DNA of 45,940 nucleotides, from NCBI GenBank assembly GCA_902598735.1, contig CACKCM010000009.1:1-45940 (forward strand). The letters run 5' to 3'. The stretch is from an uncultured Pelagibacteraceae bacterium (lineage in GTDB: Bacteria; Pseudomonadota; Alphaproteobacteria; Pelagibacterales; Pelagibacteraceae). The notes beneath the pieces are model-generated. The model worked only from the letters and a program-made list of their open reading frames with translations, did no database searches and was not told the origin of the DNA. The number at the start of each line of letters is the position of its first letter. Position 1 is the stretch's first letter. Position numbers and translations under genes: made by a program. This document shows, one piece after another, positions 39,402 through 45,940 of the stretch.

Positions 39402-41795
39402 ATGAAAGCTTCTTATTTAAAGCCACTCCTACCTCTTAGAGATATTGTGATATTTCCTTCAATGGTAGTGCCATTATTTGTTGGTAGGGAAAAATCAATC
39501 AAAGCTTTACAAGAGGTAATGAAATCAGATAAATCAATAGTCTTAGTTACTCAAAAAAATTCAGAAACTGATGATCCAATAGGAAAAGACTTATATCAAT
39601 TTGGATGTCTTAGTAAGGTTCTTCAATTATTAAAATTACCCGACGGTACAGTGAAAGTATTAGTTGAAGGTGAAAAAAGGGTAAAAATTTTAAAACATAC
39701 TGAGAATGACTCAAGTTTTTTAACTTGTGAAGTTGAAGTTGCAGATGATCAAAATTTATCAAAAGATTTAGAGCCTTTAGCTGTGGGTCTAATCAAAAAG
39801 TTCGAAAGACTTCAAGTATTGAATAAAAAAGATTTCAACGAAGGTGCAAGTAATTTAAAAAACTTAAAGAATCCTTCTCAAATTGCCAATAACATTTCAT
39901 CAAATTTAAATATTCAAATATTTGAAAAACAAGAATTATTAGAAATCGTAGATCTTAAAAAAAGGCTAGAAAAAATTCATTCGTTAATTGAAAAAGAAAC
40001 AAGTGTTTTATCTGTTGAGAAAAAGATACGTGGAAGAGTAAAAAATCAAATGGAGAAAACTCAAAGGGAATATTATCTGAATGAGCAGTTAAAAGCTATT
40101 CAGAAAGAATTAGGAGAAATTGATGAAGGAAAAGATGAGCTTTCTTCTTTGTCAAAAGCTATTTCAGAAGCTAAAATGCCTAAACTTGCTAAAGAAAAAT
40201 GCCTATCCGAACTAAAAAAACTTAAGTCAATGAGCCCTATGTCTGCTGAGGCAACAGTTGTTAGAAATTATCTTGATTGGATGACAGAACTTCCTTGGTC
40301 AAACAAATCTAAAATAAATACTGATTTAAATGATGCTCAAAAGATTTTAGATGAGGACCATTATGGTTTAGAAAAAGTCAAAGAAAGAATTATTGAATTT
40401 TTAGCAGTTCAAAAAAGAATTCAAAAAATGAAAGGACCAATATTATGTTTAGTAGGCCCTCCTGGAGTTGGAAAAACATCTTTAGGAAAATCTATAGCAA
40501 AAGCAACAAATAGAAAATTTATCAGAATATCTTTAGGCGGAATAAGAGATGAAGCTGAAATCAGAGGTCATAGAAGAACTTATATAGGCTCGTTACCTGG
40601 AAAAATAATTCAAATGATGAAAAAAGCTGGCACTAAAAATCCACTTTTCCTTCTTGATGAAATAGATAAAGTAGGAAATGATTATAGAGGAGATCCATCT
40701 TCTGCATTATTAGAAGCCCTAGATCCTGAACAAAATAAAGAGTTTAATGACCACTATCTTGAAGTTGATTATGATTTATCCGATGTGATGTTTGTTACAA
40801 CAGCTAACACTTTAAATATTTTACCACCGTTACTAGATAGGATGGAAGTTATCAGATTGTCCGGCTATACTGAAGATGAAAAAGTAAATATTTCACAAAA
40901 ATTTCTTATTCCAAATCAAAGTAAAAATAACGGATTGAAAAAAGAAGAGTGGAAAATAAGCGAAAAAATTATAAGGAGAATTGTAAGAAATTATACAAGA
41001 GAGTCTGGAGTAAGAAACTTGGAAAGAGAAATTTCAAAAATTGCTAGAAAACTCGTGAAGAAAATAGACAATAATGAAAAAGTAAATAACCCAATAGACG
41101 AAAAGGACCTAAAAGATTTACTAGGAGTACAAAAATTTAATTATGGAGAAATTGAAGAAGAAAATAGAGTAGGTGTAGTGACCGGATTAGCATGGACAGA
41201 AGTAGGGGGTGAAATTCTTAAGATAGAGTCGGCAATAATGCCCGGAAAAGGAAAAATGCAAATTACTGGAAAACTAGGAGATGTGATGCAAGAGTCGGTT
41301 AAAGCAGCGAAATCATATATAAGATCAAAAAGTTTAGATTACGGTATAATTCCACCCATTTTTGATAAAAAAGATTTTCACATTCATGTACCTGAAGGAG
41401 CAACACCTAAAGACGGCCCTTCAGCTGGCGTAGGTATGGTAACTTCGATAATATCAGCTATTACTGAAATTCCAGTTAATAAAGATGTTGCTATGACTGG
41501 TGAAATTACTTTAAGAGGATTAGTTCTTCCTATTGGAGGTCTAAAAGAAAAATTACTGGCTGCACATAGAGCTGGAATTAAAAAGGTTTTAATTCCAGTA
41601 GAGAACAAAAAAGATTTGATAGAAGTCCCTAAAACTATTTTAGAGTCTATGGAAATTATACCAGTAAAAAATGTAGATGAAGTTTTGAAAGTAGCTTTAA
41701 CTAAACCACTCAAAAGAGTTGAATGGGTTGAAGTTGATCAAATAACTGGCAAAAACAAAGGAAAAAACAAAAAAGAAGAGATTAGTACGCATTAA
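39402..41795 (+). CDS. lon: ATP-dependent protease Lon
   Basis: Soluble AAA+ serine protease degrading misfolded and regulatory proteins. The 797 residues have the LonA layout: an N-terminal substrate domain (about 1-200, [22 protein letters not shown]), a coiled-coil linker, the AAA+ module with Walker A GPPGVGKT (352-359) and [10 protein letters not shown], and a C-terminal protease domain with the catalytic dyad S674 (DGPSAGVGM) and K717, the same 43-residue spacing as in E. coli. A short Lys-rich tail follows. Its stop shares TTAA with the convergent glycosyltransferase gene. Confidence 0.97.
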
Positions 41796-42676
41796 TCTAT
41801 CCAAATCTCAAACTTATTTTTATTTATAACAATATATTCTGGAAGATTATTAATTCCAACTTTTTCTAGCGCGACACTTTCAGTCCATTTTTTTAGATTT
41901 TTTTTATCAGCTTTGTGATCATACATAACTTTTTTGTTTTTTATTAAAGATTTTAATTTTTCTAAATCATATCCGCTCTCTTCGTATTCAAGATGATGCA
42001 AAAAGTTTCTCAACTTATAATCCATTTCTTCAGCTGACATCATATTAGTAAAATGCCAACCACCAGACTCAACAAAACCTAAGTTAAAGTATTTCTTGTT
42101 ATCAAATAAAATATCAAGTCTCCAAAAAGGATATTTTTTTGTTTTAATATTTCTTAACCACTGTGGACTTATTAAATGTTTTATTTTACAAACTTTGCTA
42201 CCCATCCAGTAAAAATTTGGATATTGTAAATTAAGTTTGTAATAAAACATTTTTTGTTTAAAAATAGTAATCTTTCGCTTGTATGCAAAATTTTCTAAAT
42301 TTGGTATTTCATCAAGATCATTAATTATTACCAAATCATCTTCAGAAAATTTTTCCAATTGTTTAAAAATAAAATTTCTCTGATAATTCTCTCTTTTTGC
42401 GGCATTATCTAAAATTTTATTTTTTTTAATCTCTTTACTTTGCTCTTTATTTATAATGTAAAGATCTGATGGTTGGTTTTCAACTACCACATATTCAATT
42501 TTATCTTTAAATTTTTGAAATTTATTTATATCAAAATTTAATTTTTTTGGTCGACCGCTATGATTAAATTTTGCTTCACAAATTATAAATTTAGAAACAA
42601 ATTTATCTAAGGTATGAAGTCGAAGATCTAAAATCATATCTTCATTGAAATACATAAAAGTGTCAATTATTTTCAT
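41792..42676 (-). CDS. GT17-like glycosyltransferase, copy A
   Basis: Predicted cytosolic glycosyltransferase of 294 residues resembling family GT17 (the MGAT3/beta-1,4-mannosyl-glycoprotein N-acetylglucosaminyltransferase type, also found in bacteria). It shows [21 protein letters not shown] at the N-terminus in two parts, the acidic metal-binding block [10 protein letters not shown] (about 117-126), [16 protein letters not shown], and GGWHFTNM. It is clearly paralogous to the next gene over its whole length. Substrate unknown. It lies convergent to lon, at the point where housekeeping genes give way to surface-sugar genes. Confidence 0.8.
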
Positions 42677-42689
42677 CTATTCTAAATTT

Positions 42690-43583
42690 CTAACTTAACC
42701 AATCTTTATATTTTTCCAAATTAGATTGAACATATTGAGGTAGATTTACATTTTTTACGATTTTAAGTTTTTTCTCTCCCTTCCACTTATTAGCTCTCAT
42801 ATCTACTTGATAATCATAAACAGCTCTATTCTCTTTTACCATTCTTTCAAGGTCAATAGTGTTCAAACCACTTTGTTCAAACTCATAATGATGGGCAAAA
42901 TTTAGCAATTTTTTTTGCAAATCTTTTGGCTTTCTAATACAAGTAAAATGCCATCCGCCATCATTTATAAAAGTTAAATTAGAATATTTTTTTTTTGAAA
43001 AAAAAACGTCTATTCTCCACTTTGGATAATTTTTACCTTTTATATTCCTAAGCCATTGTGGCCCTAAAAAATTTTTATATTTTATACCTTTTGTTCCTTG
43101 CCAAGTAAAATTTTCATATAACAAATTAAGTTTATAAAAAAACATTTTCTGTTCAAAGATAAGTATTTTATTATCAATGTTAGATAAGTTAACTCGATCA
43201 ATATTCGGTATTTCATCTAAATCACTTATTAAGATTAAATCGTTATCAGAAATATTTTTTAATCCTCTTTTTAAGCTCTCTCTTTGAAAGTAATCTCTTG
43301 CCATTCCATTAAGAATTAATTTATCACCTTTTTTCCTATTTGAGTCATCTGCTTTAACTTTTAATATTTTTTTTGGTTGTTTATCTACAATTATGTAAGT
43401 GATTTTATCTTTAAATTTTTTAAAATTATTTATATCAAAATTTAATTTTTTTTTATTACCATTATGCGAGTAAGTTGCCTCAGTAATGACAAATTTTTTA
43501 ACATAATTATTTAAAATATTTAGTCTTAAATCTAGCAGGAGATCTTCATCAAAATACATGAAGCAGTCATATATATTCATCAT
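42690..43583 (-). CDS. GT17-like glycosyltransferase, copy B
   Basis: Paralogue of the downstream gene, 297 residues, with the same blocks in the same order: [77 protein letters not shown] and GGWHFTC. The two genes are 13 bp apart and co-oriented, so they probably arose by tandem duplication and then diverged mainly in the middle (about 70-110) and at the C-terminus. The start is ATG ATG (43583 or 43580). First gene of the minus-strand unit, 49 bp from the divergent fusion gene. Substrate unknown. Confidence 0.8.
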   Translation of the reverse strand: MMNIYDCFMYFDEDLLLDLRLNILNNYVKKFVITEATYSHNGNKKKLNFDINNFKKFKDKITYIIVDKQPKKILKVKADDSNRKKGDKLILNGMARDYFQRESLKRGLKNISDNDLILISDLDEIPNIDRVNLSNIDNKILIFEQKMFFYKLNLLYENFTWQGTKGIKYKNFLGPQWLRNIKGKNYPKWRIDVFFSKKKYSNLTFINDGGWHFTCIRKPKDLQKKLLNFAHHYEFEQSGLNTIDLERMVKENRAVYDYQVDMRANKWKGEKKLKIVKNVNLPQYVQSNLEKYKDWLS

Positions 43584-43632: not shown

Positions 43633-45940
43633 ATGAGAAAGAAAATTATTATCACTGGTGGCTTAGGGTATATAGGTACGGAGCTTTGTAAGCTTTATTC
43701 TGGAGTAAGCTGGCATCATAATATAGCAATAATTGATAATAGGTTCATTTCTGAACGAGTTTCGCAGCTTAGAAAATGGAACATGGAATTCGTACATGGA
43801 GATATTTTAGATAAAGACTTATTATATAAATATTGCCATGATGCTGATATTGTTCATCATCTAGCTGGGATTACAAAAGTTCCAAGAACAAAAAGTGAGT
43901 CCAATATTGTTCAAGATCAAAAAATTAAATCTGTCAGCGAACAAGGAACTCAAAACATTTTAGACGTTATTAACGATAATTGTAAAATCATTTTCCCTTC
44001 AACACATGTTGTTTATGAGGGAATAAAAGATGTAAGAACTGATATCACTGAAGACGAAGATACAAAACCGGTGCTATCATACTCATCTTCAAAAGCTATA
44101 AATGAAAAACAGCTAAAAGACTCAGGTAAAAATTATATTATTTTAAGATTAGGATCTGTTTATGGATATTCAACTGATGCTATGCGAATTGATATAATGC
44201 CTAATCTATTTTCTAAAATTGCTTCTCAAAACGGAACAATAAGATTATTTGCTGGCGGCAGACAAATTAAAAGTTTAGTCCCTCTAATTGATGTTGCAAG
44301 ATGCTTCAAATTTATGGAAGAAAAACAAGATATCAATAAAGAAACATTTAATCTAACAAAAGACACAATTACAGTAAAAGAAGTCGCTGAACTTTGTAAA
44401 AAATTTAATCCAAAGATAATTTTAAAAGAAACAAATGATGAAATTCCTAACTTAGGTTTTTCTTTATCAAACAAAAAACTTTTTAAAGCCGGTTTCAATT
44501 TTTTATATAATCTTGATAAAAATATTGAGGAAATGATTAAAAAGTGGTCAAAACAAAGTCTTACTAATGACCTAGAATTTGTACGTAACGGAGAAAATTT
44601 ATTTGAGGATGAAAGAGGTTCTATAAGTAATCACGAGTTAACTGAGCCTATAAATTTAATAGGGTTGATTGAGTCAAAAAAAGGAACAATTAGAGCAAAT
44701 CATTATCACCCCCAACAAGAACAAAAATGCTTATTTACTAAAGGACAAATTATAGAAATATTTCAAGATATTATAAATCCAAACTCACCAAAAATTACAC
44801 AAGTTGTTAATGCTGGACAGTTGTCGGTAATAAAACCAAATGTTGCTCACACTATGGTTTTCACTAAAGACACAACTTTTTTGAATTTAGTTAGAGGGGA
44901 AAGGGATCATGAAAATTATGGAATTACTCATACGATAAAACATGTTTTTGTAGATGAGAAAGAAAAAAATGCACTTTTAAAATATTACAAGTTTGAGTGT
45001 AGATCATGTGGAAATTCTGATTTAAAAAGAGTTGTTTCTTTAGGATATCAACCACTTGCAAACAATCTATTAAAAAAAAAACAAGAAAAGTGTGAACTGT
45101 ACCCGCTCGAAGTAAATTATTGTAGTAAATGTCACAATTGCCAGCTTTCAATTTCTATAGATCCAAAAAAAATGTTTTCAAATTATTTATACACTTCCTC
45201 AACTTCTAAAGTATTCAGAGACCATTTCGTAAAAGCAGCAAATAAATATTTCAAGGATTTAAAATTAAATAAAAAAAATTCATATATCATAGATATTGGA
45301 AGTAATGACGGTGTGGCACTTAAACCATTTTTAAATTTAGGTTTTAAAAAAGTTCTAGGAATAGAGCCGGCAAAAAACTTAGCAAAAATAGCAAATAAAA
45401 ATAAGATAAAAACATTTAATGGATTTTTAGAGAAAAAAAATCTAAATAAAATAAAAAAAAACGCGGATCTCATTTTAGCTTCAAATGTATTTGCGCATTC
45501 TGACAGGTTAAAAGAAATGGCTGAGTGCATGTTAAAGCTTTTAAGTAAAAAAGGAACAATTATTATTGAAGTGCAATATTTAGTAAACACTCTTAAAGAT
45601 TTAACTTTTGATAACATCTACCATGAACACTATAATTATTGGTCACTTACTTCTTTAATTAATTTTTTTAAACAATTTGAGGCAAAAATTACAAACGCTG
45701 AAATAGTTAATACTCATGGTGGATCATTAAGAGTTTATATAAAAAAAGACAAAAAAGCTAAAATTGAAAACAATGTAAAGCAAATACTTAAAGAAGAGGA
45801 GAATTTTGGTATCAAAAAATTTGAAACATATAAAAAATTTGGAGAAAAAGTTTATAAAATAAGGGAAAATGTTAGAAAAAATATAAAAAAACTTAAAGAT
45901 AAAAACAAAATTATTATTGGGTATGGAGCTCCAGCAAAGG
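43633..45940 (+). CDS. SDR epimerase/reductase - cupin - sugar C-methyltransferase fusion (cut by right edge)
   Basis: One uninterrupted frame of 769 codons, still open at the window edge. Residues 1 to about 310: extended SDR with the NAD(P) loop GGLGYIG (9-15), HHLAGITKVP, and catalytic Y150/K154 (YSSSK). Residues about 315-440: cupin with the metal-type ligands H357, H359, E363 (NHYHPQQEQ) and H406 (NVAHTMVF); SDR plus cupin is the CapF layout. Residues 450 onward: a sugar C-methyltransferase with an N-terminal zinc domain (C456, C459, C497, C500, with C503 nearby), the SAM motif DIGSNDG (554-560), and a C-terminal domain entered at GYGAPAK just at the edge. Likely makes a C-methyl-branched deoxysugar nucleotide for surface glycan; the exact sugar is unknown. 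Confidence 0.85.
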   Translation, partial: MRKKIIITGGLGYIGTELCKLYSGVSWHHNIAIIDNRFISERVSQLRKWNMEFVHGDILDKDLLYKYCHDADIVHHLAGITKVPRTKSESNIVQDQKIKSVSEQGTQNILDVINDNCKIIFPSTHVVYEGIKDVRTDITEDEDTKPVLSYSSSKAINEKQLKDSGKNYIILRLGSVYGYSTDAMRIDIMPNLFSKIASQNGTIRLFAGGRQIKSLVPLIDVARCFKFMEEKQDINKETFNLTKDTITVKEVAELCKKFNPKIILKETNDEIPNLGFSLSNKKLFKAGFNFLYNLDKNIEEMIKKWSKQSLTNDLEFVRNGENLFEDERGSISNHELTEPINLIGLIESKKGTIRANHYHPQQEQKCLFTKGQIIEIFQDIINPNSPKITQVVNAGQLSVIKPNVAHTMVFTKDTTFLNLVRGERDHENYGITHTIKHVFVDEKEKNALLKYYKFECRSCGNSDLKRVVSLGYQPLANNLLKKKQEKCELYPLEVNYCSKCHNCQLSISIDPKKMFSNYLYTSSTSKVFRDHFVKAANKYFKDLKLNKKNSYIIDIGSNDGVALKPFLNLGFKKVLGIEPAKNLAKIANKNKIKTFNGFLEKKNLNKIKKNADLILASNVFAHSDRLKEMAECMLKLLSKKGTIIIEVQYLVNTLKDLTFDNIYHEHYNYWSLTSLINFFKQFEAKITNAEIVNTHGGSLRVYIKKDKKAKIENNVKQILKEEENFGIKKFETYKKFGEKVYKIRENVRKNIKKLKDKNKIIIGYGAPAK

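Follow-up and report, generated by a model that had tools for sequence, protein, structure and literature searches.

The window analysed here, a stretch of 45,940 nucleotides of DNA from an uncultured Pelagibacteraceae bacterium (SAR11; contig CACKCM010000009.1), ends within a gene that encodes a short-chain dehydrogenase/reductase (SDR), a cupin and a zinc-type sugar C-methyltransferase in one uninterrupted reading frame (Table 1). It is confirmed that this frame is a genuine SDR-cupin-C-methyltransferase fusion, and the fusion, its conservation, the active sites that it has kept and its gene neighbourhood can be read directly from the DNA. Judged from its three domains, the protein is quite likely a one-chain enzyme that C-methylates a nucleoside diphosphate sugar (NDP-sugar) and supplies a C-branched NDP-sugar for a surface glycan. 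The architecture is new and made from known parts; two-domain fusions (CapF, RmlC-RmlD) are already known.

A three-domain fusion conserved in SAR11

The genome (G000) is 84% complete and comprises 889 kb in 20 contigs, among which the window is C9. Because this contig stops at position 45940, the window protein is incomplete and short of about 80 C-terminal residues; in complete SAR11 relatives the frame runs to about 845–868 codons and is stop-free between the domains. In Pfam searches the window protein matches Epimerase (residues 5–241, E = 1.1e-23), Methyltransf_13 (456–515, 4.9e-17), Methyltransf_23 (544–685) and Methyltransf_14 (694–769, 3.5e-19, truncated), the last three being the zinc-type C-methyltransferase architecture and all over their cut-offs. 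A cupin family was not matched at E ≤ 0.01 in this whole-protein search; the model of the middle domain is a confident cupin (predicted local distance difference test, pLDDT, 89.5). The original prediction, made from the window alone, had placed the three activities in one frame with domain starts near codons 312 and 445. The Pfam matches, the cupin model and the frames conserved in relatives bear this out, and the domain starts agree with the model of an 850-residue relative numbered as the window protein (L031), which has a low-confidence linker at residues 307–311 and a methyltransferase fold that starts at residue 453.

Full-length or near-full-length fusions (query start ≤26, query end ≥689) are found in 80 of the 197 sampled genomes of the family and in 41 of the 53 genomes of the window's own genus; left out of the count are the copies in G004, G008, G025, G077, G081, G085, G114, G157, G175 and G193, which are broken or partial. 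All three domains lie in one open reading frame (ORF) at 109 of 113 loci, L112 being counted in spite of its broken SDR part, and the remaining four (L002–L005) are short chance matches. The possibility that a sequencing or assembly error or chance read-through has joined three genes, for which one could cite only that the gene reaches the contig end, is therefore practically nil and was rejected: the same fusion recurs in the family genomes and in viral records, and its conservation in relatives excludes chance read-through. Neither hidden stop codons nor three separate genes were seen in relatives within the family; separate genes were seen in distant bacteria, and split forms in some viral loci.

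Outside the family, 398 sampled genomes of the phylum, searched with the SDR and cupin domains, gave matches to one or the other but, the window excepted, never to both together, and 289 sampled genomes of the class gave, again with the exception of the window, methyltransferase-only matches at E ≤ 1e-60. These samples leave room for rare fusions elsewhere. There the closest cupins and methyltransferases observed are encoded by separate genes that adjoin each other, namely at all five loci picked by their cupin (L146–L150) and at four (L223, L224, L227, L228) of six loci picked by their methyltransferase, the six being a selection from 25 other genomes matched in the class sample; the other two (L225, L226) have rfbF and rfbG instead. 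An SDR gene adjoins five of these nine cupin-methyltransferase pairs, and all five SDRs carry the motif SSSEIYG...YDESK, typical of UDP-glucuronate decarboxylases (UXS), makers of a 4-keto sugar; the other four pairs had no SDR match. At L148 the order of the genes (SDR, cupin, methyltransferase) is that of the domains in the fusion, and its cupin and methyltransferase are among the nearest separate relatives found. Unlike the fusion, however, L148 consists of three ORFs and its SDR is of the other, UXS-like type. In Desulfolutivibrio and Brachyspira plasmids an epimerase-family gene adjoins the methyltransferase gene near rfbF.

Kept active sites and nearest relatives of the domains

The original prediction had also claimed that catalytic and ligand residues are kept in each domain. 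Indeed, these residues of the window protein are invariant in an alignment of 35 fusions (A1: 27 from SAR11 including the window, plus seven found on viral contigs and one in the record of a large phage). Motifs were in addition surveyed in 63 dereplicated fusions, 38 of them viral and 25 from SAR11.

Among proteins of solved structure the SDR domain matches Cj1427 best, both by sequence (6vo6, E = 8.1e-24) and by fold, at 26–27% identity. Asp35, which suggests the NAD (nicotinamide adenine dinucleotide) type, is invariant in A1, and PS[TS]HV is kept in 63/63 fusions, SAR11 and viral. A role as 4,6-dehydratase (RmlB, GMD) was rejected because the Asp-Glu pair of these enzymes is absent: His125-Val126 are invariant in A1 where Asp-Glu would be expected after the catalytic Thr. 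The RmlB model gives 55.8 bits with the SDR, its cut-off being 365.1. Cj1427 is of the NAD type, as the SDR of the fusion probably is, but it is a stand-alone protein and has NTNSGY where the fusion has PSTHVVY. According to excerpts of its description it oxidises C4 of GDP-D-glycero-D-manno-heptose, regains NAD with alpha-ketoglutarate and has a separate epimerase and a separate reductase as partners (PMC10680097). The SDR thus resembles an NAD-dependent C4-dehydrogenase more than an NADPH-dependent ketoreductase, and it may create a 4-keto group and not only remove one. Of the original assignment as a C4 reductase of the CapF/NovS type the SDR fold stands and the reductase type has become uncertain, in view of Cj1427 as nearest relative, of Asp35 and of the use of NADPH by CapF. 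Judged by eye, a stand-alone SDR of SAR11 (L249; G042:C5:56238-57110; NSGYGIG...YGITK) strongly resembles Cj1427, so that SAR11 may also have a C4 dehydrogenase of the GDP-heptose type.

The best folds for the cupin model are nearly all NDP-4-keto-sugar isomerases and epimerases, plus a few engineered metalloproteins. The highest VIA Z quoted is 13.2, to a 3,4-ketoisomerase (116 residues, root-mean-square deviation 1.9), followed by sugar isomerases of the epimerase group with 12.9 and 12.1 and by CapF with 11.1 (96 residues). Alone, the window cupin matches Polysacc_synt_C with E = 0.0011 and 19.5 bits, under the cut-off of 28.7. Because this family matches 48 of the 53 members of a cupin alignment (A3) at E ≤ 0.01 (best 3.9e-05), a distant kinship with the Polysacc_synt_C (CapF) family is likely. 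In a search with the A3 profile, CapF sequences were the sole matches at E ≤ 0.1 (best 0.0087), and the FdtA family of Pfam matched only one of the 53 members. The HxH motif is present in 63/63 fusions. It had been claimed that the cupin is a 3-epimerase; that it belongs to the cupins acting on NDP-4-keto-sugars holds, while the assignment as epimerase is uncertain, since the model ties with 3,4-ketoisomerases, RmlC epimerases and CapF.

The best solved relatives of the methyltransferase domain are all sugar 3-C-methyltransferases (MtmC, 4rv9; KijD1; TcaB9), with 26–31% identity and fold matches of VIA Z 46–49 over 392–399 residues. These enzymes of the TylC3 type, which belong to antibiotic pathways, align over the whole domain but are stand-alone proteins of 416–426 residues; MtmC is presumably the TylCIII-type enzyme, mentioned further below, that also reduces a ketone. 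Tyr518, His622 and Tyr663-His-Glu-His666 are invariant in A1 and match Tyr76, His181 and Tyr222/Glu224/His225 of TcaB9, the numbering in the two comparisons made differing by 2; TcaB9 mutants at the matched residues are named in titles of the Protein Data Bank (PDB). HEH is present in 63/63 fusions. Both zinc CxxC pairs are kept in 56 of the 63. The seven without them (L161, L165, L167, L169, L172, L182, L186) cluster together in the methyltransferase tree, and because they keep the remaining motifs it follows that loss of the zinc site need not entail loss of the catalytic residues.

Table 1. Positions in the window of the fusion gene, its domains and motifs, and the neighbouring glycosyltransferase genes.
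Feature	Residues	Position	Strand	Remarks
Fusion gene	1-769	43633..45939	+	ATG start, 769 codons, stop-free, open at contig end
SDR domain	1-306	43633..44550	+	Extended SDR, probably NAD type; Pfam Epimerase 5-241; Cj1427 match; L031 model and fold
PSTHVVYEG motif	122-130	43996..44022	+	Ser123, His125, Val126 invariant in A1; without Asp-Glu dehydratase pair
YxxxK	150-154	44080..44094	+	Tyr150, Lys154 invariant in A1
Cupin domain	314-447	44572..44973	+	Model, fold matches, profile
HxH metal-type motif	His357/His359	44701..44709	+	Plus His406 at 44848-44850; invariant in alignments A1, A3, A4
Sugar C-methyltransferase domain	453-769	44989..45939	+	C-terminal portion absent in window, complete in relatives
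Zinc-binding part	Cys456, Cys459, Cys497, Cys500	44998..45132	+	Invariant in A1; Methyltransf_13
S-adenosylmethionine-binding motif GSNDG	556-560	45298..45312	+	Invariant in A1; GxNDG in 63/63 fusions
YHEH	663-666	45619..45630	+	Aligned with Tyr222-Asp-Glu224-His225 of TcaB9
GT17 glycosyltransferase, divergent neighbour, probable partner		42690..43583	-	PF04724, 4.1e-17
Second GT17 glycosyltransferase		41792..42676	-	PF04724, 4.2e-12

Rival courses of the reaction

Sugar 3-C-methyltransferases require a ketone adjoining the carbon that is methylated. We infer the substrate, the order of the steps, the site of methylation, the product and its use as follows. Redox chemistry at C4 of a nucleotide sugar would fall to the SDR domain; the cupin would rearrange the 4-keto sugar beside the carbonyl, by epimerisation at C3 or at C3 and C5 or by a shift of the keto group between C3 and C4; and the zinc-type methyltransferase would take a methyl group from S-adenosylmethionine (SAM) and place it on the carbon next to the carbonyl, most likely C3. 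The resulting branched NDP-sugar would then be used for a surface glycan, in SAR11 probably via the adjacent GT17 (or GT2) glycosyltransferase, whereas in phages the enzyme would serve to modify the surface of the host or glycans of their own. That the substrate is a 6-deoxysugar, as originally proposed, is uncertain because no single 4,6-dehydratase accompanies the fusion throughout; that it is an NDP-sugar fits the kinship of the pieces with NDP-sugar enzymes. The original prediction also suggested that the single chain may channel unstable keto intermediates.

If this outline holds, the course that we prefer, and to which we would give close to an even chance, is self-contained: NAD tightly bound to the SDR would oxidise C4 of a common NDP-sugar, the cupin and the methyltransferase would act on the ketone, and the NADH formed would re-reduce C4, so that only SAM is consumed. 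It is favoured by the kinship with Cj1427, a C4-oxidising enzyme, by the invariant Asp35 and by the UXS-like SDRs beside five of the nine separate gene pairs. It is also favoured by the distribution of 4,6-dehydratases, a hint only in that the genomes are not independent and their assembly is uneven: RmlB, GMD-like and RfbG proteins are each present in 14 of the 20 fusion genomes that are ≥90% complete, different ones missing each, where GMD-like means ≥345 bits, under the GMD cut-off of 415 (above this cut-off there are 8/20 genomes). One genome (G042, 93% complete) has the fusion and none of the three.

Several observations weigh against this course or against parts of the outline. In the L031 model the placement of the domains relative to each other is poorly defined (predicted template modelling score, pTM, 0.62). 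The seven fusions without zinc ligands, all viral, lack a site otherwise kept. The Z values of the cupin span only about 2, so that the fold does not distinguish an epimerase from a 3,4-ketoisomerase; and Gln364, invariant in A1, stands in the place of the metal-binding Glu after HxH of CapF, a place that is taken by His in seven of eight separate-gene cousin cupins. With respect to the NAD cycle, Cj1427 needs alpha-ketoglutarate for NAD regeneration, by the same excerpts, and has a different motif, and it is conjecture that the substrate goes back to this one SDR. G042 is incomplete and 4% contaminated, dehydratases of the PF02719 type were not searched in it, and virus records are perhaps fragments. 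Genomes with the fusion and without a dehydratase of the PF16363 type were found only as candidates (G042 and G171), both incomplete, several loci having given no frame and the PF02719 type again not having been searched. Finally, there are 4,6-dehydratases to reckon with: the window's own genome encodes RfbG, CDP-glucose 4,6-dehydratase (432 bits), at least one of RmlB, GMD-like and RfbG is present in 19 of the 20 genomes, GMD-like genes lie near 19 of 65 viral loci, and the Desulfolutivibrio plasmid has the row rfbF, rfbG, epimerase-family gene, methyltransferase, acyltransferase, SDR.

These dehydratases, like the separate-gene rows behind rfbF and rfbG, are what would be expected if the fusion carried out only the late branch of a pathway, as the original prediction had it. 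A separate 4,6-dehydratase would then supply an NDP-4-keto-6-deoxyhexose, which the cupin would epimerise, the methyltransferase methylate and the SDR reduce at C4 with NAD(P)H, much as in NovW, NovU and NovS or in CapF. Given the outline, we regard this as a serious possibility that nevertheless falls some way short of even. It does not sit well with the absence of any one dehydratase that tracks the fusion, nor with an SDR that is probably of the NAD type and has a C4 dehydrogenase as its closest relative; the cofactor of CapF, in excerpts of the paper, is NADPH (PMC5393024).

A third proposal is compatible with both the self-contained and the late-branch version of the SDR: the cupin would be a 3,4-ketoisomerase of the FdtA/QdtA type, and methylation would take place beside a 3-keto group. 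For it speaks that the highest Z quoted for the cupin is to such an isomerase. Considering, however, that epimerase-group isomerases and CapF lie within about 2 Z units of it, and that the sequence profile and the Pfam families point to CapF rather than FdtA, we consider it unlikely.

Neighbourhood, viral versions and known systems

The fusion gene lies mostly at a fixed site among housekeeping genes, and a glycosyltransferase is its steadiest companion. This holds for the best 80 of 222 relatives from the contig scan, a set that leans toward close relatives: lon lies upstream in 69 of these 80 SAR11 loci and NADH dehydrogenase (nuo) genes downstream in 59 (Pfam names from L031), and immediately upstream of the fusion there is a divergent GT17 gene in 66, a GT2 gene in five and lon in seven, the gene in this place being unassigned or missing in two. 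The window has two tandem GT17 genes; most relatives have one. A conserved zinc-ribbon protein (N-terminal PF13717; in L031 8546-9070) is encoded next downstream of the fusion in 66/80 loci. At L101, L102 and L103 the fusion lies elsewhere: a GT2 gene precedes it, and it is followed by genes for an arylmalonate decarboxylase/Asp-Glu racemase-like protein, a peptidase and transporters (Pfam for L101; the same clusters in all three).

Full fusions with about 50–58% identity are also carried by viral contigs. All three domains lie in one ORF at 43 of the 65 viral loci, some of them cut at an end and one (L183) with a broken SDR part; it should be noted that the 65 include near-duplicates and contigs shared with a first set of viral matches, and that several are end-cut (e.g., L212 and L214, which are perhaps truncated fusions). 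A T4-type major capsid gene was found over its cut-off on nine of 25 viral contigs tested (24 with the fusion, and L209, which has only the methyltransferase) and in none of 14 control genomes; each of the nine carries the fusion. Tail-fibre genes follow the fusion at L111 and replication genes are nearby at L112. A complete fusion is present in an unannotated 642-kb phage record (L145; LR756502.1 439122-465392). GT17 genes are nearby at 13/65 viral loci. One viral contig (L113 4284-10541) carries GMD, the fusion, a Polysacc_synt_2 (CapE-like) gene and a CapF-like gene close together. Domains inserted into the fusion, as might be thought from tblastn matches of >3 kb at L105, L111 and L113, were rejected; the ORF that follows the fusion is a second SDR (L105 and L111, read in their second copies L159 and L178) or the Polysacc_synt_2 gene (L113).

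Some viral loci have split forms. An SDR-cupin chain is followed by a separate methyltransferase gene in overlapping frames at L198 and by a distant one at L195, L199 and L207; at L213 the SDR is apart from a cupin-methyltransferase chain; and a methyltransferase without cupin is found at L203–L206, L208–L211 and L216 and at the perhaps cut L212 and L214. The opposite is seen at L188 (7947-11363), where an ORF of 1139 residues combines SDR, cupin and C-methyltransferase with an FkbM-type methyltransferase as fourth domain. In a quick methyltransferase tree, with support only from the Shimodaira-Hasegawa-like approximate likelihood-ratio test (SH-aLRT), with long branches flagged and with an outgroup that no single branch sets apart, the fusion-type domains all group together (100). 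Within them the SAR11 fusions are a group of their own (100), next to the viral fusions (90, drawn open), a picture that is silent on the direction of transfer. Because 10 of 16 viral stand-alone methyltransferases are placed among the viral fusions, the tree suggests that these arose by later splitting.

A known protein close to the fusion in layout is CapF (Cap5F) from Staphylococcus aureus, which has an SDR and then a cupin in one chain and whose cupin motifs RG and HxH align with those of the fusion. It differs in having no methyltransferase, in Glu instead of Gln after HxH and probably in the cofactor of its SDR, and the SDR of the fusion is nearer to Cj1427; excerpts describe CapF as an NADPH-dependent SDR with a zinc cupin (PMC5393024). 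In an RmlC-RmlD fusion of Prymnesium parvum, two enzymes of a deoxysugar pathway, an epimerase and an SDR reductase, share one polypeptide (PMC6556577), with two domains and, as far as the title of that paper tells, no methyltransferase. For Coxiella a virenose pathway was proposed in silico that includes TylCIII-like C3-methylation and reduction of an NDP-4-keto-6-deoxyhexose, according to excerpts with separate genes, and one C-methyltransferase of the TylCIII type is reported there to reduce the ketone too (PMC3539893). SAR11 phages were found to have glycosyltransferase and O-chain genes, many of which lie in regions for host recognition, and the phages were proposed to alter the surface of their host, as excerpted (PMC7029224); the words epimerase, dehydratase and methyltransferase are absent from the main text of that paper. 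The statement in the original prediction that the triple fusion is not known as a described system agrees with the titles and abstract openings of the literature searched (open-licence PubMed Central, by which subscription journals are mostly uncovered), in which none is described.

The function is probably right in outline. In its most specific form the proposal is tentative, and as a whole we think it rather less likely to be true than not: a single chain would convert a common NDP-sugar to a C-methyl sugar with its own bound NAD, needing neither a 4,6-dehydratase nor an outside reductant, and this enzyme would be near-core in several SAR11 genera and would also belong to T4-like and very large phages, all competing over one surface glycan. 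With its fused and split forms, its separate-gene cousins and a four-domain version, the system offers a natural set for asking what fusion gains in the handling of reactive keto sugars.

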